A DNA stretch of 58,331 nt, taken from assembly GCA_013290025.1 (NCBI GenBank), contig JABCYV010000003.1, positions 1-58,331 of the forward strand, given 5' to 3'. The first letter of the stretch is position 1, and each line of letters opens with the position of its first letter. Source of the stretch: Acidobacteriota bacterium. GTDB lineage: Bacteria; Acidobacteriota; Terriglobia; Terriglobales; Acidobacteriaceae. Made by a program: the position numbers and the translations under genes. Below, piece after piece: positions 47,181 to 56,832 of the stretch. Under the pieces are notes generated by a model. The model was not told the DNA's origin and did no database searches. It saw nothing but the letters and a program-made list of their open reading frames with translations.

Positions 47181-49169
47181 CTAAGTGCCGGCCGATGCTT
47201 GGTACGCCTTGGCCGAGCTGGAGGAGCTGTTCACTTTCAGCAACAGGGCGGAAATGACGTGCTGATCAGCCGGTTTGCAGAAGTAGTAGCCTTGTGCGAA
47301 GCTGCAATCCAGCGCCTTGAGTTGGTTGACGTGCTCCTCTGTTTCGGTTCCTTCTGCCACGGTCACCAAGCCAAGGCTCTGGGCGAGCATGATGATGATC
47401 TTGACAATCTTGTGACTCTCCGGATCGCTGTCCATATGAGATATGAACGAACGATCGATCTTCAGCGCATCCACCGGGAACTGCTGTAGGCGGCTGAGCG
47501 ACGAATATCCCGTTCCGAAATCATCCACGCTCAGGCGAACTCCAAGTGACTTGAGTTCGGATAGCACGGAAGCTGCTTTCTCCGGATTCGCCATGGCGAT
47601 GGTTTCGGTAATCTCCAACTGCAGATTGTAGGGATCTAGCGCGGTCTGCCTCAGGGTCTCTCCAATCCCTTTCGCCAGGTCGGGATGCGCGAACTCCTTC
47701 GAGGTAATATTCACGCTCATGCTAAGCGGCGGCTCCGCGGGAAATTGCCTCTGCCACGAGCGCAGTTGTTCGCAGGCTTCGCACAGCAGCCATCGATTCA
47801 TGGGAACAATCAGGCCGGTTTCCTCGGCCACCGTAATAAACTCGGCGGGCGAGAGCAAGCGGTTCCCGCGTTGCCAACGGGTCAGCGCTTCAAAACCGGT
47901 AATTCTGCCGGTCGTCAGGGAGATGATCGGTTGGTAGTGGGTTCTGAATTCGCCCAACTCCATGCCCTTACGGAGTTCCGTCTCCAGCTCCAGGCGCCTG
48001 ACCGCGCCCTCATGCATTGCGGTATCGAAGACTTCGCATCGTGCCTTGCCCGCTCGCTTGGCCCGATACATGGCGATGTTAGCGTCCCGCAGCAGATCTT
48101 CAGCATGGGCACAAGCTGCGGTACTCAAGGCAATTCCGACGCTAGCGTTTACTACAATTTCGTATCCCTGGACGGTGAAAGGAACCGCCAGCCTGCTCTG
48201 CAGCCGCTCGGCCACCCGTATGGCATCGCTGGGTGTTCGGATATCCTCCAGAAGTATCGTGTATTCGTCGCCACCGAGCCGGGCCAGCGTGTCATCTTTT
48301 GAGGATTGGCCTAGCAACGGACGTGAGATCGTGTCCACTTCCCGGAGCGAGGCGGTCAACCTCTGGCCGATTTGAACCAGAATGTCGTCCCCGACTTTGT
48401 GTCCTAGGCTGTCGTTAAAAACCTTGAATTCGTCGATATCAATAAACAGGACGGCGAATTTGTAATCTCTATGACGCTTGGAGAGCACTAATGCGCGCTG
48501 CAACCGTTCAAGCAAAAGAGCGCGGTTCGGCAGATTCGTCAGCCCGTCGTGGAAGGCGCTGTGCGCCAGCATCTCTTCCGCGCGTTTGCGCTCGCTGATG
48601 TCGCGGTTCACAATCACTAGCTTTTCGGTTTCCCCTTTCGCGTTTCGGATGGCGCTGGCGGTTGATTCCAGGATGCGCCATGAACCGTCCTTATGGCGCA
48701 TCCGGTATTCCAGCCTCTGTCCCTGGCCCGTGGAACGCGCCTTGCGCGCCGCCTCCAGTACTCCCAGGCGGTCATCGGGATGAATTTGCTCAATGGACGA
48801 GGTGGTCTTCAACTCTTCCACCGAGTACCCGAGGATGTGCTGGTATGCCGGGCTGTTGTAAATCCGGCGGCCGGCGTCATCGACGACTGCAATCATGTCG
48901 GCTGCGTTTTCTGTGATCAGTTGAAAGAGCTCGTCTCGCTCCGCGAGCTGGCGCCGGATTCGCTGTAGCTGCAAGTGCTGATAAAGCGTGTAAATGTCGA
49001 ATAACAATACGACAAGGGCCAATCCGCGGACCCATTCCTTGAGATCGGTCCAATACGTACCCTCGGTTTGCGGGTGCAACTGGAAGTAGGTTAAAGAGAC
49101 GATGCCGAAAGTCAAAACCAGAGTCACTACTACAGCCAGGCCCCATAGCCACCACTCGCGCCCCTCCAT
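47181..49169 (-). CDS. membrane PAS-GGDEF-EAL protein
   Basis: The product is 662 residues from ATG 49169 (MEGREWWLWGLAVVVTLVLT); an in-frame start at 49400 adds 77 unlikely residues. Two N-terminal helices are followed by a PAS/PAC domain (LFQLITENAADMIAVVDDAG to VIVNRDISERKR). GGDEF has active-site GGDEY and SKDD in place of the RxxD I-site, preceded by an insertion-like stretch (SRPLLGQSSKDD). EAL has FEALTRW, VSVDDFGTGYSSLSRL and the usual Glu/Asp ligands. The EAL motifs are intact, so phosphodiesterase activity is likely. Cyclase activity is possible, as GGDEY retains the key residues. It may be the main local sink for c-di-GMP. Confidence 0.93.
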   Translation of the reverse strand: MEGREWWLWGLAVVVTLVLTFGIVSLTYFQLHPQTEGTYWTDLKEWVRGLALVVLLFDIYTLYQHLQLQRIRRQLAERDELFQLITENAADMIAVVDDAGRRIYNSPAYQHILGYSVEELKTTSSIEQIHPDDRLGVLEAARKARSTGQGQRLEYRMRHKDGSWRILESTASAIRNAKGETEKLVIVNRDISERKRAEEMLAHSAFHDGLTNLPNRALLLERLQRALVLSKRHRDYKFAVLFIDIDEFKVFNDSLGHKVGDDILVQIGQRLTASLREVDTISRPLLGQSSKDDTLARLGGDEYTILLEDIRTPSDAIRVAERLQSRLAVPFTVQGYEIVVNASVGIALSTAACAHAEDLLRDANIAMYRAKRAGKARCEVFDTAMHEGAVRRLELETELRKGMELGEFRTHYQPIISLTTGRITGFEALTRWQRGNRLLSPAEFITVAEETGLIVPMNRWLLCEACEQLRSWQRQFPAEPPLSMSVNITSKEFAHPDLAKGIGETLRQTALDPYNLQLEITETIAMANPEKAASVLSELKSLGVRLSVDDFGTGYSSLSRLQQFPVDALKIDRSFISHMDSDPESHKIVKIIIMLAQSLGLVTVAEGTETEEHVNQLKALDCSFAQGYYFCKPADQHVISALLLKVNSSSSSAKAYQASAGT

Positions 49170-49726
49170 CTGCCACCTCTGGATCGGCGCCGCCGTAGGC
49201 CTATTCTCGCTAAAGGTTGGGAATTCTTCCTGAGTCACGCTACCGGTCGCCCCTCCCACAGAAGAGATTCTAGACCGATAAAAACATGTACCAAGGTTAC
49301 CGAAGTTGTTGAGTGAGTAACCCTGAACAACCTTTGAGGCATCTGCAAGACCAACGGCGCCTGCGCTTGCGTACGCTCCTCGCGATGGCAGCCAGAACAC
49401 GGTTGAGAAGCCGGTCCCGTGGCGTTCGCCGCAATAGTATTCAGTCTTACCGCCTTTTGGTTGTGATCGTGCTCGTCCCAGTCGCGAGACACGGACGAAC
49501 GAGCAGACGGGCCAATTATGAGCGCCCAGTTCACGCGAGTAACGTTAGTAATCTTTAGTAATCTTTTGCGAGAACTGACAGCTCCATAGAATCGAGCCAG
49601 TTCCCTACTCACAGGAAATGAACGCGTTCATCGACCCTTCTTATTCTGATGTTTAAAAGGGGCAGAAAAGTCTGGGGGAGCAGGGAAGGAACTGTATTCC
49701 GCAAGCCCGAAGGTGTAGGTGTACCG
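49170..49726. other. divergent intergenic region between the EAL gene and the EPS cluster
   Basis: About 557 bp between divergent genes. It contains an inverted repeat enclosing two 10-bp direct repeats at 49527-49577 (separate entry). No supported ORF. It should hold the promoter of the plus-strand polysaccharide cluster. Confidence 0.5.
49527..49577. promoter_or_regulatory. inverted repeat enclosing tandem 10-bp repeats, upstream of the EPS cluster
   Basis: Outer arms CAGTTCACGCGA (49527-49538) and TTGCGAGAACTG (49566-49577) pair at 10 of 12 positions. Between them TTAGTAATCT occurs twice in direct succession (49545-49554, 49555-49564), an exact one-turn spacing. It lies 149 bp before the wecB start. 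The arrangement suits a regulator-binding region, but it is unproven. Confidence 0.4.
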
Positions 49727-50965
49727 ATGAAGTGCCGAGTCATTGCGGTTTTGGGCACCCGTCCGGAAGCCATCAAACTGGCGCTGGTGATCCAGGAACT
49801 GCGCCGTCGCAGCGATGAATTTGAAATCGCGGTGATTCACACCGGCCAACACCGCACGATGCTGGATAGCGCCCTCAAACTATTCAAGATCAAACCTGAC
49901 TTCGATCTAGACGTGATGCGTCCCAACCAGACGCTCAGCTCACTGACGGCTCGCGTACTGGATACAGTAGAGAACGCGTGCAGCCGCTTCCAGCCTCACA
50001 TGGTGCTGGTGCAAGGCGATACGACCACAGCCTTTGCCTCAGCTCTGGCGGCTTACTACTGCAAGATCGCGGTAGGGCACATTGAAGCCGGCCTGCGTAG
50101 CCGAGACATTTACAATCCGTTTCCGGAAGAGGCCAACCGCCGGCTGGTCTCGGTGATGACGGAGATCCATTTTGCGCCCACAGCCTTATCCCGCGACAAT
50201 TTGTTGGCAGAAGGAGTACCAAGCGAAAAAATTGTAGTCACGGGCAATACGGTCGTCGATACGCTGCGTGCGCTGGGTGAGGTGCCGCATTCCTGGGAGC
50301 ATACGGCGCTGGAGGGAATCCCGCAAAACCACGGGCGGCTGGTATTGGTGACTTCGCACCGGCGCGAATCGTGGGGAACCGACCAGGAACACATGTGCCT
50401 GGCGCTGAAAGATCTGGTTACCAAGCACCACGATATTCGGATTGTTTATCCGGTTCACATGAACCCGAATGTGCGCAGCACGGTGAACGCTCTGCTACAG
50501 GACACGGAACGGATCCATCTTACAGAGCCGCTCGACTACATCACCTTCGTTAGCTTGCTGCGACATTCTTTCCTGGTGTTGACCGATTCGGGAGGTATTC
50601 AAGAGGAAGCGCCAACCTTTGGCAAGCCCGTGCTGGTCCTGCGCAAAGTCACGGAGCGGCCGGAAGCTTCACAGTTTGGTATGGCGAAGATCATTGGCAT
50701 GTCGCGGGAAGCAATTGTGCGAGAAGCGGACCGGTTACTTACTGACACGGATGCGTACCAGGACATGTCGGAGGGTGAGAATCCGTACGGGGATGGTCAC
50801 AGCTCGGAAAGAATCGTAGAAGCAGTCGCGCGCTGGTCACAGACAAAGACTCCATTGTTGGAGGCCGACAAAGAATTCAAGCTGCCGCCAAGGGTGCATC
50901 CCCGACGCCGGAGAAGTGACTTTTCGCAGAACGCCGCGAAAGCTGCCACGGCTGGTAAGGAGTGA
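49727..50965 (+). CDS. wecB: UDP-N-acetylglucosamine 2-epimerase, non-hydrolysing
   Basis: The product is 412 residues from ATG 49727 (MKCRVIAVLGTRPEAIKLAL); an in-frame start at 49649 is rejected. Family motifs are GTRPEAIKL, HTGQHRTML, VQGDTTTAFASALAAYY, GHIEAGLRS, PFPEEANRRL, TGNTVVDTL, HMNPNV and DSGGIQEEAPTFGKPVLV. The enzyme interconverts UDP-GlcNAc and UDP-ManNAc in the cytosol. It carries a basic C-terminal tail (PPRVHPRRRRSDFSQ) beyond the usual length of about 375. It is the first gene of the polysaccharide cluster; the GT2 gene follows after 37 bp. This implies that ManNAc or a derivative is part of the polymer or its precursor pool. No ManNAc dehydrogenase gene (wecC) is in the window. 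Confidence 0.93.
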   Translation: MKCRVIAVLGTRPEAIKLALVIQELRRRSDEFEIAVIHTGQHRTMLDSALKLFKIKPDFDLDVMRPNQTLSSLTARVLDTVENACSRFQPHMVLVQGDTTTAFASALAAYYCKIAVGHIEAGLRSRDIYNPFPEEANRRLVSVMTEIHFAPTALSRDNLLAEGVPSEKIVVTGNTVVDTLRALGEVPHSWEHTALEGIPQNHGRLVLVTSHRRESWGTDQEHMCLALKDLVTKHHDIRIVYPVHMNPNVRSTVNALLQDTERIHLTEPLDYITFVSLLRHSFLVLTDSGGIQEEAPTFGKPVLVLRKVTERPEASQFGMAKIIGMSREAIVREADRLLTDTDAYQDMSEGENPYGDGHSSERIVEAVARWSQTKTPLLEADKEFKLPPRVHPRRRRSDFSQNAAKAATAGKE

Positions 50966-51002: not shown

Positions 51003-52247
51003 ATGATCTATGTACTGTACGGCATTGTCTCCATCATTTGTGTTTACACGGCGCGCCATTACTGGTTCACGCTGAACCGGCTTTTTGGATTCCAGCGACA
51101 TCCTTACATCGATATTGATACCGCTGATTGGCCTCCGGTGACGGTGCTCGTGGCTGCTCACAACGAAGAAAGAGTCATCGCCAACATTCTGAGCGCCCTG
51201 ATGACCGTGAAATATCCCGGCGACAAGATGTTGGTGGTGCCGGTCAACGACCGCTCAACCGACCGCACGCGCGAAATCGTTGACGAATTTGTGAAGCGCT
51301 TTCCGGGACGCATTCGGCCGTTTCATCGAGTTACTGGCAGAGGCGGGAAAGCCGCGGCTCTGAAAGACGCGATGGAAATGGTCGAGACAGAAGTAATTCT
51401 GATTTTTGACGCGGATTACATTCCGGGCTCGGGCCTGATCAAGCAATTGACGGCTCCGTTTTTTGATCCGGAGGTTGGCGGGGTGATGGGGCGAGTAGTG
51501 CCGATGAATTGCGGCGCGAACTTGCTAACTCGCCTGTTAGACCTGGAGCGATCCGGCGGATACCAAGTGGACCAGCAAGCGCGCATGAATTTGCACTTAG
51601 TGCCACAGCATGGCGGGACGGTAGCCGGCGTGAGGCTGAGTGCGCTACGCGAAATCGGCGGATGGAACGATAGGACGTTGACGGAAGACACGGACTTGAC
51701 CTACCGGTTGCTGCTGCACGGGTGGAAGACGGTTTATCAGAACCGTTCGGAATGCTACGAGGAGGTGCCTGAGACCTGGCAGGTGCGGATCAAGCAGATT
51801 ATGCGCTGGGCCAAGGGGCATAACCAGGCCATGGTGACATATGGCTTGCAGTTGCTATTCGGGCAACACCGCGCAACCTTGCGCGAGCGGCTCGATGGCG
51901 CCTTGCTACTCGGGGTTTACATCATGGCGCCCTTCACCATGCTGGGCTGGGTGCTGGCGCTGACGGTTTTTTACCAAGGAGTCGCACCGTTGCACGGAGT
52001 TCTGGCCATTTTGGGGGTGACGGCGTATGCCACGGTGGGAAATATGGCAGCCTTTTTTGAAATCGCGGCGGCGGTCCGACTCGATGGCAACTGTAAACGG
52101 ATTCGACTGCTGCCGTTTCTGATTCTGGGCTTTACGGTAAGCATCTTTGCAGTCTCATGGGCCGCGTTCTCGCAGGTGAAGGACGCTCTAACGGGAGCGG
52201 AATTTCATTGGGACAAGACTGAACGCTATCGGAAGGCTGCCTCGTGA
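51003..52247 (+). CDS. processive family-2 glycosyltransferase, membrane polysaccharide synthase
   Basis: The 414-residue protein starts with a membrane helix (MIYVLYGIVSIICVYTARHY), followed by a GT2 domain. Its motifs are VTVLVAAHNEERVIANIL, VVPVNDRSTDRT, the DxD motif in VILIFDADYIPG, the acceptor-base motif TEDTDLTYRLLL and QIMRWAKG (QxxRW). Two or three C-terminal helices (VYIMAPFTMLGWVLALTVFY and on) complete a synthase layout like NodC, PgaC or hyaluronan synthase. QxxRW marks a processive enzyme that makes and extrudes a beta-linked chain. It has no PilZ domain of its own. Its stop overlaps the next gene's GTG (GTGA at 52244-52247). Confidence 0.9.
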   Translation: MIYVLYGIVSIICVYTARHYWFTLNRLFGFQRHPYIDIDTADWPPVTVLVAAHNEERVIANILSALMTVKYPGDKMLVVPVNDRSTDRTREIVDEFVKRFPGRIRPFHRVTGRGGKAAALKDAMEMVETEVILIFDADYIPGSGLIKQLTAPFFDPEVGGVMGRVVPMNCGANLLTRLLDLERSGGYQVDQQARMNLHLVPQHGGTVAGVRLSALREIGGWNDRTLTEDTDLTYRLLLHGWKTVYQNRSECYEEVPETWQVRIKQIMRWAKGHNQAMVTYGLQLLFGQHRATLRERLDGALLLGVYIMAPFTMLGWVLALTVFYQGVAPLHGVLAILGVTAYATVGNMAAFFEIAAAVRLDGNCKRIRLLPFLILGFTVSIFAVSWAAFSQVKDALTGAEFHWDKTERYRKAAS

Positions 52248-53305
52248 ATCCCTATCTCGCGGTTGCGGCCCTGGTGGTGCTATGCGGCGTCGTTTTCCTA
52301 TTGCCGTTGATTCCGGCGCTAGTGGAATTGAAACGGGAAGAAGACGGATTGGCGTTAAAGGTGATTCAGGAACATGCGGGCGAGATACGGTATTTTGCCG
52401 ATGGTTTTCGCAACTATATCAAGGCTTTGGAGCCGACGTTGCAAGAATGTCTCGTTTCTGGTGGAACGGCCAAGGGCAGGATGCCGGACGGAGCCGAGTA
52501 CTTGGTTCTGGGACGTCGTGAAGAGGCACCGTTGCTTCCGCTTGAACAGCGCGACGAGATCTGTCCGGTGGTGCTGGCAACAAGAGCGGACTTGGTGCTT
52601 CCTTCCGCAACTACTTTCTCAAGAGACATCTATGCAGGCGGCGGATTCATCGGCGGAATCGAGAACTGTTACCGGGCGATTCTTGGGGACAAAGACGTTC
52701 GGTTGGGACGCGGGAGCCGGGTCATGAGGTGGGTGCACGCGGTCGGGGAGTTCCGGGCCGATGAGGGGTGCCAGCTTTACGGCCGCATCTCCTCCGATTC
52801 CGCGATTCGGTTGCACGCCGGTTGCAGCTTTCTGCGATTAAATGCTCCGCGGATTGAAACTGGTCCGGCGACGCGAACCGAGGACCAGGGGAAGAGAACG
52901 TCGAGCAGGCCGCTGAATTCGCCGCGAATGTTGTACGACCACGACTTTCAGATCGGCGCCGGTAATGAGTTCGTCGGAGATCTAGTGGTCAGAGGAAGGT
53001 TGCGAGTGGGCGCCGGGGCGCGGGTGTGGGGCAACGTCAAGAGCGGCGGAGAACTGATTATCGAGAGAGATGTTCTCGTAAGTGGCACCTTGATCAGTGC
53101 GACCCGAATGCACATTGGCCTAGGTTGTACGATTCGCGGACCGGTGATCGCAGAACGTGAATTGGAGATGGAAGCCGGAACGCGATGCGGGAGTCCTGAG
53201 TGTCCGACGACAGTCAGCGCGCCCAATATCACGTCGGCAGAAGGAGTCGCTGTTTTTGGCACATTGTGGGCCCGGGAACACGGGCAGGTGGTGAAGAAAG
53301 CATGA
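52244..53305 (+). CDS. membrane-anchored bactofilin-like beta-helix protein
   Basis: The 353-residue protein has an N-terminal membrane helix (NPYLAVAALVVLCGVVFLLP). A middle part of about 150 residues shows few features except FSRDIYAGGGFIGGIENCYR. A right-handed beta-helix-like C-terminal region has short strand repeats (EFVGDLVVRGRLRVGAGARV, WGNVKSGGELIIERDVLVSG, TRMHIGLGCTIRGPVIAERE) typical of bactofilin / polymer-forming cytoskeletal domains. Bactofilins form filaments that localise cell-wall and polysaccharide machineries. The GTG start overlaps the GT2 stop, and the stop overlaps the ATG of the deacetylase (ATGA), so the gene is translationally coupled on both sides. It is likely a scaffold for the synthase. 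Confidence 0.78.
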   Translation: MNPYLAVAALVVLCGVVFLLPLIPALVELKREEDGLALKVIQEHAGEIRYFADGFRNYIKALEPTLQECLVSGGTAKGRMPDGAEYLVLGRREEAPLLPLEQRDEICPVVLATRADLVLPSATTFSRDIYAGGGFIGGIENCYRAILGDKDVRLGRGSRVMRWVHAVGEFRADEGCQLYGRISSDSAIRLHAGCSFLRLNAPRIETGPATRTEDQGKRTSSRPLNSPRMLYDHDFQIGAGNEFVGDLVVRGRLRVGAGARVWGNVKSGGELIIERDVLVSGTLISATRMHIGLGCTIRGPVIAERELEMEAGTRCGSPECPTTVSAPNITSAEGVAVFGTLWAREHGQVVKKA

Positions 53306-55134
53306 AGGTGGGGTGGATAGTGTTCGGGGCGACCACACTCGTAATTGCTTTGGCGGTTTGGTCCTGGTCGGCCCATGGGCGATGGGGAGCACCACCAGAT
53401 CGCCTACTCCTGTTGCTGCCGGATGAAGTCAGCTTGTCCGATCCCAAAGTAGCGCTTTGGCTGGATGCAGCGAGCGAGGAAGGCCTGCACGTCGAGCCGA
53501 TGCGAGACTCTGACTTCACGAGACCGTTCTTCAGGCAGCCCGCGTGTGCAGGAGTGATTCTTCCGGACACGGTGCATCTGGAGGCGAGCGATCTGTTCAT
53601 TGCTTCCCTCCGACGATACGTGGCGGGGGGCGGTCATCTGATGCTGGTTTACGACGCGGGCACGTTCACACCGGAAGGCAGGTACGCCAAAGGATGGTCG
53701 CGACTTTCGGATCTCGCGGGAGTGGACTATGCGCTGTATGACCGGTTGCAAAACGGCACCATCCACTGGGGTGGGATGAGCGGGAGTAGCGCAGTCGTGC
53801 GTCAGATGGACATCCCTCCGGGAAAGTACTATCCATTTCGAAGTGCTACGCAGGAAACGGGAAACTTCGAGGTCGAACTCAAGCGCTACGAATTCGGTGA
53901 TCTTCACTATCCCAGTTATGTGACCTCTGGGGATTACGACGGCCAAGTCCTGTTCCATTCCGATGCGGGGTTGGTGGCAGGGGAACGCAATTTCGAAAAG
54001 GGCTCGGTCCTATTTATCAACGCGCCGCTGGGATATCTCAAAGCCAACACCGATGGCTTGCTTCTGCACTCATTTCTGAAATACTTCGCCGCGCACACGT
54101 TGGGTCTGCCTTATCTCGTGTCGGCTCCAGACGGTGTGGGCGGGCTGGTGTTGAATTGGCACGTCGATTCCAACGCCGCGATTAAGCCGCTGCAGCAGAT
54201 GAGGTCGTGGACCATGCTGCAGCAGGGCACGTTTTCGATTCACGTTACCGCGGGGCCAGACACGGCGCAGGTGGGCGACCACCGCGGCTTTGATGTGCCT
54301 CACAACAAGGTCAGCCAGGAACTGATTCGGGAGCACGTGGCGCGAGGCGACGAGATCGGCAGCCACGGTGGCTGGATGCACGATTACTTTGCCTCGCATG
54401 TGGATAAAGACAATCCCAAGGATCTGGAGCACCTGCTGGAGCAGAACAAGACCGCTCTCGAAGCCATTACGGGCAAACCGGTGGTGGAATATTCAGCGCC
54501 CGAGGGGAATCAGCCGAAATGGGTCACGAGCTGGCTCGACACTCATGGGTTTCTGGCCTATTACTTCACCGGCGATACCGGCATGGGGCCGACGCAGGGC
54601 TACCGCGATGGCATGCGCGAGGGACAAAACGTCTGGGCCTTTCCGATTGTGCACTTGAATAAGGATGCGGCCTTCGAGGAGATGACGCAACACCGGTATA
54701 CCAGCGCGGAGATTGAGCAGTGGCTCGAAGCTATGAGCTCATTTACCGCCGATCACCGGTGCATCCGACTACTCTACTTTCATCCTCCTGGAATAGTGGG
54801 ATACCACAAGGCAGTGGATCAGTGGCTGGAGCAAACTGCTCGGTTGCAGGCGCAAGGGCAGTTTCGGTGGTACACCATGGCCGAGGTAGCCCGGTTCCTG
54901 AATTCCCGCAAAGAAGTGCGGTGGAAGACGTCAGAGAATGGGGGACACTTCACCATCGTTGCGACTCATCCGCAAACTCTGGAACACGAGACGTGGCGAC
55001 TTCTGGCAGTGAGGTACTCTGAGCCAGTTGTAGATCGTGGCAATGCCAAAGTAGTGCGCGACAACGATTCCTGGATGGTAATTGCCGGGCCAGGAACCGA
55101 ACTGCAATTCGAAAGCAAGGTTACAGGTCCATGA
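53302..55134 (+). CDS. membrane-anchored NodB-like polysaccharide deacetylase with an N-terminal GATase-like domain
   Basis: The product is 610 residues from ATG 53302. A signal anchor (GWIVFGATTLVIALAVWSWS) precedes an alpha/beta domain (about 35-265) that resembles class-I amidotransferase-like or beta-galactosidase trimerisation folds (YVAGGGHLMLVYDAGTFTPE). A NodB-type barrel follows (about 275-530): LVLNWHVDSNAA (metal Asp), EIGSHGGWMHDYF, VVEYSAPEGNQPKW and YYFTGDTGMG. The His pair is HxxxxH, not the usual HxxxH, and RxPY is replaced by SAPEG, so activity needs testing. A beta-rich C-terminal part ends the chain. It should act on the polymer in the periplasm, perhaps removing N-acetyl groups. 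It is coupled to both neighbours by ATGA overlaps. Confidence 0.82.
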   Translation: MKVGWIVFGATTLVIALAVWSWSAHGRWGAPPDRLLLLLPDEVSLSDPKVALWLDAASEEGLHVEPMRDSDFTRPFFRQPACAGVILPDTVHLEASDLFIASLRRYVAGGGHLMLVYDAGTFTPEGRYAKGWSRLSDLAGVDYALYDRLQNGTIHWGGMSGSSAVVRQMDIPPGKYYPFRSATQETGNFEVELKRYEFGDLHYPSYVTSGDYDGQVLFHSDAGLVAGERNFEKGSVLFINAPLGYLKANTDGLLLHSFLKYFAAHTLGLPYLVSAPDGVGGLVLNWHVDSNAAIKPLQQMRSWTMLQQGTFSIHVTAGPDTAQVGDHRGFDVPHNKVSQELIREHVARGDEIGSHGGWMHDYFASHVDKDNPKDLEHLLEQNKTALEAITGKPVVEYSAPEGNQPKWVTSWLDTHGFLAYYFTGDTGMGPTQGYRDGMREGQNVWAFPIVHLNKDAAFEEMTQHRYTSAEIEQWLEAMSSFTADHRCIRLLYFHPPGIVGYHKAVDQWLEQTARLQAQGQFRWYTMAEVARFLNSRKEVRWKTSENGGHFTIVATHPQTLEHETWRLLAVRYSEPVVDRGNAKVVRDNDSWMVIAGPGTELQFESKVTGP

Positions 55135-56009
55135 TGATGGCAGGAACAAGACAACTTCGCTGTTTTGCCTTGCTGGTTCTGTGGTGGAGTCTGTCGATTG
55201 CCAGCCAGGTGGAGGCGCAGGTTGTTAATGCACAGGCGGACGCCGCTCCCGCGCCCGTTGAAGCCTTGGTCAGGCAGACTCAACCCGAGGCCCAGACGAA
55301 AGCGCTGACAAATTACGTGGAAAGCGGAGGCAACTATCTGGCGCTGAGCAACGGCTACGGCTACTGGGCTGGTGGCTACACACGTGGCGTTTATCAACAA
55401 GGAAAAAACATCTGGAATGCTGAGGTGAATGGCCAGCACGAGTTTGGCGACGCTGGCGTCTATATGGCGGCTGGTGACACCTACAACTTCAACCCGGATT
55501 GGTACGGCTCGCTGACCCTGGGAACAAGCGTCGGCGGATTCTTCTGGCCGCGATATCGTGCCGATGCTTTCCTGAACAAGAAATGGCTGGGACGGAAACA
55601 GTGGATCACGACTGCAGGCCTTGGTTACTACGCGGCCAAAGATGTGCATCGTGACCACAGCTTCTATCTCGGCAGCACGTACTACTTTGAGAAACCGTGG
55701 ATCATCGAGGAAGGGATTTATTTCAACCTCAGCAACCCGGGGAGGGTCTTTGCGCCGGCCGGTTTCGTGGCGGTCACCTGTGGACGGAATAAGCGGCAGT
55801 ACCTTACAGTGCGCGCGGGGCTGGGGGAAGAAGCGTATCAACTGATTGGACCCACGTCCAGCCTGACTCAATTCAACAGCCAGACGCTGACGATCACCTG
55901 GCGTAAATGGATGGGAACGAATTGGGGCATGAACGTAATCGGTGATTACTATCACAGTCCGTTTTACGGAAGAGGGGGAAGCAGCTTCGGGTTGTTTAAG
56001 GATTTTTGA
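55131..56009 (+). CDS. YaiO-like outer-membrane beta-barrel protein
   Basis: The 292-residue protein starts at the first of three consecutive ATG codons, overlapping the deacetylase stop. It has a signal peptide (LRCFALLVLWWSLSIASQVE, then AQ). The mature chain alternates aromatic and small residues in paired strands: NYLALSNGYGYWAGGYTRGV, YGSLTLGTSVGGFFWPRYRA, ITTAGLGYYAAKDVHRDHSF, YLTVRAGLGEEAYQLIGPTS and QTLTITWRKWMGTNWGMNVI. It ends in Phe (GLFKDF), the usual signal for barrel insertion. The pattern matches the YaiO family of outer-membrane proteins, which in E. coli lies beside a glycosyltransferase (YaiP) and a deacetylase (YaiS). It is the candidate export pore for the polymer. Confidence 0.82.
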   Translation: MMMAGTRQLRCFALLVLWWSLSIASQVEAQVVNAQADAAPAPVEALVRQTQPEAQTKALTNYVESGGNYLALSNGYGYWAGGYTRGVYQQGKNIWNAEVNGQHEFGDAGVYMAAGDTYNFNPDWYGSLTLGTSVGGFFWPRYRADAFLNKKWLGRKQWITTAGLGYYAAKDVHRDHSFYLGSTYYFEKPWIIEEGIYFNLSNPGRVFAPAGFVAVTCGRNKRQYLTVRAGLGEEAYQLIGPTSSLTQFNSQTLTITWRKWMGTNWGMNVIGDYYHSPFYGRGGSSFGLFKDF

Positions 56010-56010
56010 G

Positions 56011-56832
56011 ATGCTGAAGCGCTGGAGACAGACATCGGAACCTTTGAACCCGGCGGAAGCGAGCCGCTTTCAAGGACATCGCGGAGGCCAGATTTCCATG
56101 CACCGCGCCCTGGCCCATTTCCGGCTTGGCCCAATGAATGTGGCAGCATCGTTGGCTCTGTTGGTTTTCTTTTCAGCGATCTGGCTCAGCGTTCTGCCCA
56201 GGGTATGTGAGTTCTGGAAGCGGGTCCTGGCATGGGGAGTACTGGTGTTGCCCCTGCACGCTCGCATCGATGTGGCGGAACGTCAATTCGGGTTCCTTCA
56301 CTTAAAGATTCCCTATCTCCGCCTGGCTGCGATCCTGCCGACGCTGGGAGTATGGTCGTTAACTTGTTTCGTGACGTTGCTGCTGTATGCGGCCACGTAT
56401 CTCATGCCGAAGAACCTGACGCCGATCGCATACCTGTCGCGCGGAATCTTGATTATTCAAGGTAGCGCGCTGGTTTACTTTGCTCTCTGGCCGATCCGTT
56501 TTCCGCACACGCCGGACCAATACATGGAGTCGCTGGTGACCGCGATGTTGGCGCTGATCAGTGTAGTGCCTTCCTTGTATGCGCTGACATACTACATTTT
56601 TGATTTCGGACTGTGGAAGAAGGCTCTACTGACGTTGATGACCATGGTGTACCTGGCGTTGTTCCTGCCGCCGCAACTCTTGCTGCAAGCCCTGGTGCTG
56701 CAGACTACCGTCCTATTCATGCCAGTGCTCTATATTGTGTGCGGGATGCTGATGAATGTCCTGCTGATTATCGCGTTTTATTCCTGGGGAATGACGTGGT
56801 CATTCCGAACGGCGCGAGCGGCGATTCGGTAA
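56011..56832 (+). CDS. multi-span inner-membrane protein of the polysaccharide cluster
   Basis: The product is 273 residues from ATG 56011, one base after the YaiO stop (TGAGATG); later in-frame ATG codons at 56098 and 56137 are alternatives. It has about seven hydrophobic segments, for example NVAASLALLVFFSAIWLSVL, PYLRLAAILPTLGVWSLTCF and AMLALISVVPSLYALTYYIF, and a conserved-looking turn PIRFPHTPDQYMESL. I do not recognise the family. Its position as the last gene of the coupled cluster suggests a helper of the synthase (chain extrusion, lipid or acyl donor handling). No catalytic motif of the acyltransferase-3 or Wzx/Wzy families was seen. Confidence 0.75.
   Translation: MLKRWRQTSEPLNPAEASRFQGHRGGQISMHRALAHFRLGPMNVAASLALLVFFSAIWLSVLPRVCEFWKRVLAWGVLVLPLHARIDVAERQFGFLHLKIPYLRLAAILPTLGVWSLTCFVTLLLYAATYLMPKNLTPIAYLSRGILIIQGSALVYFALWPIRFPHTPDQYMESLVTAMLALISVVPSLYALTYYIFDFGLWKKALLTLMTMVYLALFLPPQLLLQALVLQTTVLFMPVLYIVCGMLMNVLLIIAFYSWGMTWSFRTARAAIR

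Follow-up and report, generated by a model that had tools for sequence, protein, structure and literature searches.

We analysed a 58,331-nucleotide stretch of DNA from an Acidobacteriota bacterium of the family Acidobacteriaceae (assembly GCA_013290025.1, contig JABCYV010000003.1, positions 1 to 58,331), hereafter the window. It carries a gene for a putative polysaccharide deacetylase, which lies with five neighbours in a six-gene module on the forward strand (Table 1). The open reading frame (ORF) was as originally described: it encodes 610 amino acids, with EIGSHGGWMHD at residues 351-361 and YSAPEG at residues 397-402, the latter at the place of the canonical RxPY motif. Four-base overlaps were found at three junctions, linking the synthase, bactofilin-like, deacetylase and YaiO genes; two of these flank the deacetylase gene, with the upstream stop at 53305 and the downstream start at 55131.

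Table 1 Features of the deacetylase gene and its module (window coordinates)
Feature	Position	Strand	Basis
WecB, non-hydrolysing UDP-GlcNAc 2-epimerase (makes UDP-ManNAc)	49649..50965	+	TIGR00236, 467.8 bits (cut-off 210.15); conserved neighbour
Glycosyltransferase family 2 (GT2), synthase-type, PgaC-like, QIMRW motif	51003..52247	+	TIGR03937, 124.4 bits (under cut-off 422.3)
Bactofilin-like protein, N-terminal hydrophobic helix	52244..53305	+	PF04519, 25.3 bits (just under cut-off 27.9); hydropathy
CE4-like (NodB-fold) de-N-acetylase, 610 aa	53302..55134	+	ORF with ATG start; translation; Pfam PF01522; AlphaFold2 model; fold matches
Transmembrane anchor, N-terminal, residues 3-26	53308..53379	+	Helix in AlphaFold2 model; hydropathy
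Alpha/beta domain, residues ~31-270 (~240 residues)	53392..54111	+	AlphaFold2 model
NodB-type barrel, residues ~277-539	54130..54918	+	VIA-align to 3qbu and 8t0j
Motif 1, N285-W-H287-V-D289 (NWHVDSN), His at presumed base position, Asp putative metal ligand	54154..54168	+	Conservation; presumed register
Conserved loop T316-A-G-P-D320 after strand 312-315	54247..54261	+	AlphaFold2 model; D320 in 32/32 rows
Motif 2, H355-G-G-W-M-H360 (HxxxxH), putative metal ligands	54364..54381	+	Translation; conservation
Motif 3, Y397-S-A-P400, Pro kept, Arg absent	54490..54501	+	Translation; conservation
E460, proposed motif-4 carboxylate tuning H494	54679..54681	+	32/32 rows; analogy with PaPelA E723/H761
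Motif 5, Y492-F-H494, proposed catalytic acid	54775..54783	+	AlphaFold2 model; conservation
C-terminal beta region, residues 540-607	54919..55122	+	AlphaFold2 model
YaiO-family outer-membrane beta-barrel	55131..56009	+	TIGR04390, 165.3 bits (cut-off 32)
Multi-pass membrane protein, no Pfam match	55942..56832	+	Hydropathy; conserved neighbour

The window deacetylase matched Pfam Polysacc_deac_1 at 26.6 bits (cut-off 23.1), and 11 of 12 aligned family members matched it at E≤0.1. We utilized AlphaFold2 with the 12-sequence alignment as input and obtained a model with a mean predicted local distance difference test (pLDDT) score of 86.3 and a predicted template modelling (pTM) score of 0.86; a single-sequence model (mean pLDDT 34.0) was discarded. 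The predicted structure bore out the additional alpha/beta domain that the original prediction had placed before the barrel, and revealed a C-terminal beta region absent from that description. Some ten-residue blocks of the alpha/beta domain reached a pLDDT of only 51-66, and PF08532 matched this region weakly in 7 of the 12 family members. Structural comparison by VIA-align placed the barrel on HpPgdA (3qbu; Z 22.8, root-mean-square deviation (rmsd) 2.5, 234 residues aligned), giving the distorted NodB barrel of carbohydrate esterase family 4 (CE4), and on ArnD (8t0j; Z 21.7, rmsd 3.2, 232 aligned). PelA (9cgy) aligned across model residues 31-608 (Z 14.8, rmsd 7.5, 439 aligned). Agd3, IcaB and PgaB were not among the 50 VIA-align matches listed, which is uninformative. 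Human NDST1 was returned by Foldseek at E 7.5e-10, yet with a TM score of 0.30 and an rmsd of about 12, a loose match. Searches of solved-structure sequences with the whole protein, its N-terminal part and the family profile found no credible relative; the profile did not return PelA at E≤5. The hhalign comparisons with seven single proteins gave partial alignments only, the best being with L003 (probability 66.6); PgaB yielded no usable alignment.

We analysed motif conservation in a 32-row family alignment that reaches down to about 31% identity. The rows represent 30 genes, because L053/L054 is one gene in two rows, as is L056/L057; a 235-residue N-terminal fragment from a broken gene copy in genome G352 had been removed beforehand. 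H287, D320, D326, H355, H360, Y397, A399, P400, E460 and H494 were present in all 32 rows, and D289 was Asp in 31. The motifs follow one another in the order 1 (285), 2 (355), 3 (397) and 5 (494). In the model, H287 lies within strand 280-288 with D289 directly after it. H355 is the last residue of strand 351-355, P400 comes after strand 396-398 and H494 directly after strand 488-493; the putative metal and acid positions thus stand at, or directly after, barrel strand ends. Of the CE4 motifs, the motif 5 histidine was retained (YxH494 in every row) and would serve as the acid. The other motifs differed: TFDD of motif 1 was N-x-H-x-D, H(S/T)xxH of motif 2 was HGGWxH in 32/32 rows, and RxPY of motif 3 was Y[SA]AP in 32/32 rows, Pro alone being common to both. 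Both copies of the gene on a plasmid of Cupriavidus sp. P-10 (L045 12001-13719, and L116, which stands outside the alignment) have Cys at the D289 position and keep motifs 2 and 5; this Cys could be a ligand or could mark loss of function.

For the published enzymes we relied on excerpts of the papers concerned. In PaPelA, E723 lies 38 residues before H761 and is predicted by the excerpted text to activate it. E460 precedes H494 by 34 residues, and by analogy the two may form a similar pair.

The original prediction had singled out the HxxxxH spacing of motif 2 as non-canonical. It does differ from the HxxxH of NodB proteins, and it is not without precedent. A review reports that four residues separate the metal histidines of poly-N-acetylglucosamine (PNAG) deacetylases (PMC5855634, in part), which is the spacing of H355 and H360, and E. 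coli K-12 PgaB, our control sequence, has SHTWNSH. Six proteins matched the PgaB model above its curated cut-off; loci were available for five, of which four had HxxxxH and one was not script-readable. Below the cut-off, 25 loci gave HxxxH in 13 and HxxxxH in none, 12 being not script-readable. As controls we used 33 ordinary Polysacc_deac_1 loci from the same and related genomes, five from one search and the 28 best-scoring from another; motif 2 was HxxxH in 25, and eight were not script-readable. Four of these 25 also hold HxxxxH strings elsewhere, which by eye are not motif 2. Judging by the excerpted review, E. coli PgaB and the four PgaB-model loci, HxxxxH is common and active among PNAG deacetylases. 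The spacing in the window deacetylase is therefore a known metal-binding one that is compatible with activity. The motif 3 arginine is likewise described as missing in PNAG deacetylases (PMC5855634, in part) and in the excerpted account of PelA.

Motif 1, which the original prediction did not mention, is the less expected departure. We took its register from the VIA-align rows that start close before strand 1 and have a nameable aspartate: 2c1i (model residue 278 to 266), 6h8l (275 to 273) and 8t0j (279 to 1). A row for 2c1g, the same protein as 2c1i, starts at 260 to 243, must hold a gap and was unusable. Only the range ends of these alignments are known, and the register assumes an ungapped strand 1. 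Carried forward in this way, H287 falls on SpPgdA D275 (2c1i, titled D275N), on PdaC D285 (6h8l, with a related entry titled D285S) and on ArnD D9, with D289 on ArnD D11 (the ArnD sequence begins MTKVGLRIDVD). We take D275, D285 and D9 to be catalytic bases; the entry titles give only the D275N and D285S mutants. On this register, H287 appears to replace the base aspartate of motif 1. The histidine may itself be the catalytic base, D320 being the other candidate, and it may mark a deacetylase branch not yet described.

In PelA, motif 1 is H526-x-D528-x-D530, and its authors assign these residues, in the excerpts available, as tether, base and metal ligand. In the same register, these face N285, H287 and D289 of the window deacetylase. 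The PelA pattern also offers another assignment, shifted by two residues, in which H287 would be the tether and D289 the base, and the metal would sit on the two motif 2 histidines alone or with another residue. This would alter residue roles only, and the enzyme could still be active. The H-x-D-x-D of PaPelA provides a model for it, as does BoPDA, which is reported in the excerpted literature to bind metal by a His-Asp dyad. However, the residue that would match D530, N291, varies (Asn in just 17 of the 32 rows), which makes it an unlikely metal ligand in a shifted register. With strand 1 taken as ungapped, the usable VIA-align offsets also match the first aspartate to H287 rather than to D289. 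We regard the shifted assignment as having a minor chance of being correct.

Comparison with characterized families, based for CE18, CE21 and CE26 on published residues, showed that, for every CE family considered, the window deacetylase lacks one or more of the defining motifs. According to the excerpted papers, PelA of Pseudomonas (CE21) has an alpha/beta domain, a CE barrel and a beta region in this order, an arrangement that the model of the window deacetylase resembles at an rmsd of 7.5, and like the window deacetylase it lacks the motif 3 Arg and has a Glu proposed in motif 4. It differs by its HxxxH (H600, H604) and H-x-D-x-D in motifs 2 and 1, by a hydrolase domain and by its operon context; the N-x-H-x-D and HxxxxH of the window deacetylase depart from the CE21 motifs 1 and 2. 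PelADA of Bacillus cereus (CE26, with carbohydrate-binding module CBM114) has a similar alpha/beta-CE-beta layout but is described with HxxxH, D262/D263, R458 and a pel operon. Agd3 (CE18/CBM87) and human NDST1 likewise have an alpha/beta or Rossmann-like N-terminal domain before the barrel, but in the excerpted descriptions both have HxxxH and keep the base Asp (D377 and D319, respectively). Neither the DD of motif 1 nor the HxxxH of motif 2 that characterize CE18 and CE26 was found in the window deacetylase. The PNAG deacetylases PgaB and IcaB (CE4) share the HxxxxH spacing and a motif 3 without arginine, yet they are described as circularly permuted proteins whose motif 5 precedes motif 1 (PMC7229062, in part). 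Because the motif order here is normal, the window deacetylase is not of the PNAG type. E. coli PgaB further differs in keeping TFDD and, by annotation, in its glycoside hydrolase domain. The alpha/beta domains of PelADA and Agd3 are reported in the excerpts to bind carbohydrate, and only by analogy with these and NDST1 might that of the window deacetylase do the same.

Next to the deacetylase gene lie genes that point to a polymer. We examined 19 longer loci with 12 to 26 kb of sequence, eight of them hand-picked; the set includes two same-genome pairs and both Cupriavidus copies. All six module genes were present in 17 of the 19, on one strand in each, so that the bactofilin-like gene and the membrane protein gene were kept in 17 as well. 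Gene order differed between the Acidobacteriota loci, L019, L020, L022 and Cupriavidus, so module content, not order, is kept. The nearest parallel found was the NGR glycan of E. coli, which requires WecB, NfrB and NfrA and is proposed to contain N-acetylmannosamine (ManNAc), its export being WecB-dependent (PMC8669472, in part). As in the module, WecB is combined with a glycosyltransferase and an outer-membrane protein. Unlike the module, NGR uses NfrB, which the available text describes as having a cyclic di-GMP (c-di-GMP)-binding domain (PMC8669472); the window GT2 scored 14.1 bits against the NfrB model (cut-off 1170) and is not NfrB. The E. coli yaiO-yaiX-yaiP-yaiS genes are a further parallel, in which yaiO has genes for a putative glucosyltransferase and a putative deacetylase in its vicinity. 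Within the library searched, no paper brought together as many as three of the four subjects YaiO, bactofilin, polysaccharide deacetylase and exopolysaccharide, and the parts of the literature listings examined contained no description of the six-gene module.

Taken together, the predicted fold, the motifs and the neighbourhood suggest that the window deacetylase is probably anchored in the inner membrane and works in the periplasm, as a metal-dependent enzyme that de-N-acetylates an amino-sugar exopolysaccharide. Its barrel, as predicted, matches those of CE4 and related deacetylases, and the invariance of H287, H355, H360, E460 and H494, with D289 in 31 of 32 rows, argues for an active enzyme. 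In the mechanism we propose, the neighbouring GT2 synthase would make an amino-sugar polymer, probably from UDP-ManNAc supplied by WecB of the operon, and the alpha/beta domain and barrel would hold the chain. A divalent metal on D289, H355 and H360 would polarise the carbonyl of the N-acetyl group. Water would be activated by a base, either H287 or a carboxylate close by, for instance D320, and H494, tuned by E460, would protonate the leaving amine. Deacetylation would precede export, and the partly cationic polymer would leave via the YaiO barrel. The presence of WecB in the operon suggests UDP-ManNAc as the precursor; whether the polymer contains ManNAc we judge roughly an even call.

Several observations weigh against this proposal. 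Motif 1 lacks the TFDD pair, both Cupriavidus copies replace D289 with Cys, no characterized protein was among the family members found, and two family members (L119 and L120) stand apart from the module. Elsewhere in the genome there are two more wecB-like sites, one of which is split into two pieces, and the ManNAc from WecB could go into a different glycan. The CE4 pseudoenzyme BA3943 has N-V in the wild type where motif 1 has D-D, and an entry described as having 'restored enzymatic activity' has D-D. Together with the apparent replacement of the first motif 1 aspartate by His and the Cys of the two Cupriavidus genes, this precedent raises the possibility of a pseudoenzyme that binds carbohydrate without catalysis and serves to guide the polymer or to anchor it. 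However, conservation of H287, H355, H360, E460 and H494 in all 32 rows goes beyond what binding should need. In addition, no other deacetylase turned up when eight window proteins from the region were searched for family matches, with genes further off not searched. Of the original alternatives, a divergent active branch or a binding protein, the former is favoured by these five residues and by the equally invariant D320 and D326; the latter now seems quite unlikely. Hydrolysis of another amide by the NodB fold, as by a deformylase or an allantoinase-like enzyme, is highly improbable: ArnD and PuuE allantoinase were among the best barrel matches in the structure search, but PuuE is described in the excerpted source as non-metal-dependent while both motif 2 histidines are kept here, and the adjoining synthase and outer-membrane genes favour a polymer substrate.

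With a de-N-acetylase as the preferred reading, we tentatively suggest, at somewhat less than even chances, that the protein belongs to a carbohydrate-esterase family that has not been described. Such a family would combine His in place of the base Asp (N-x-H-x-D), HxxxxH and the absence of the motif 3 Arg, and would partially de-N-acetylate a ManNAc-containing exopolysaccharide from a bactofilin/YaiO-type export module in Acidobacteriota and Proteobacteria. If so, a branch of deacetylases would use a base other than the customary aspartate and would be tied in two phyla to a compact six-gene module that predicts a polymer, possibly mannosamine-based.

Relatives of the window deacetylase were sparse. 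Counting the centre genome each time, 6 of 100 relatives had a match, as did 20 of the 397 genomes from the order and 2 of 369 from the class to which genome G428 belongs; a further 11 loci came from the species-genome collection, and one plasmid record held two copies. Two genomes of the window's own family, G046 and G221, encode the same protein as loci L018 and L013. A phage link, considered because NGR phages have deacetylase tailspikes, was unsupported: none of 12 family members had a PHROG match (E≤0.1), and a search of the phage collection with the window deacetylase gave no match at E≤1. The two loci of the 19 without the full module, L119 and L120, lack the other five genes nearby, have open frames of 789 and 741 amino acids, and are extra copies, the same genomes having the module at other loci (L020 and L121).

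Within the window, the listed start of the multi-pass membrane protein probably precedes the true one, and the protein is possibly a partner of the synthase. Upstream of wecB, a PAS-GGDEF-EAL gene (47181-49400) lies on the other strand, divergent from the operon. Its product could provide a c-di-GMP input to the operon; among the 19 loci, a close match was found only in L017 and a weak one in L013. In contig 493 of G352 (L042/L044), one copy of the deacetylase gene consists of two open pieces, with one match containing an internal stop, reflecting either a broken gene or an assembly error. At L015 (7680-8913), the synthase match is split over two frames, consistent with a frameshift or a sequencing error.

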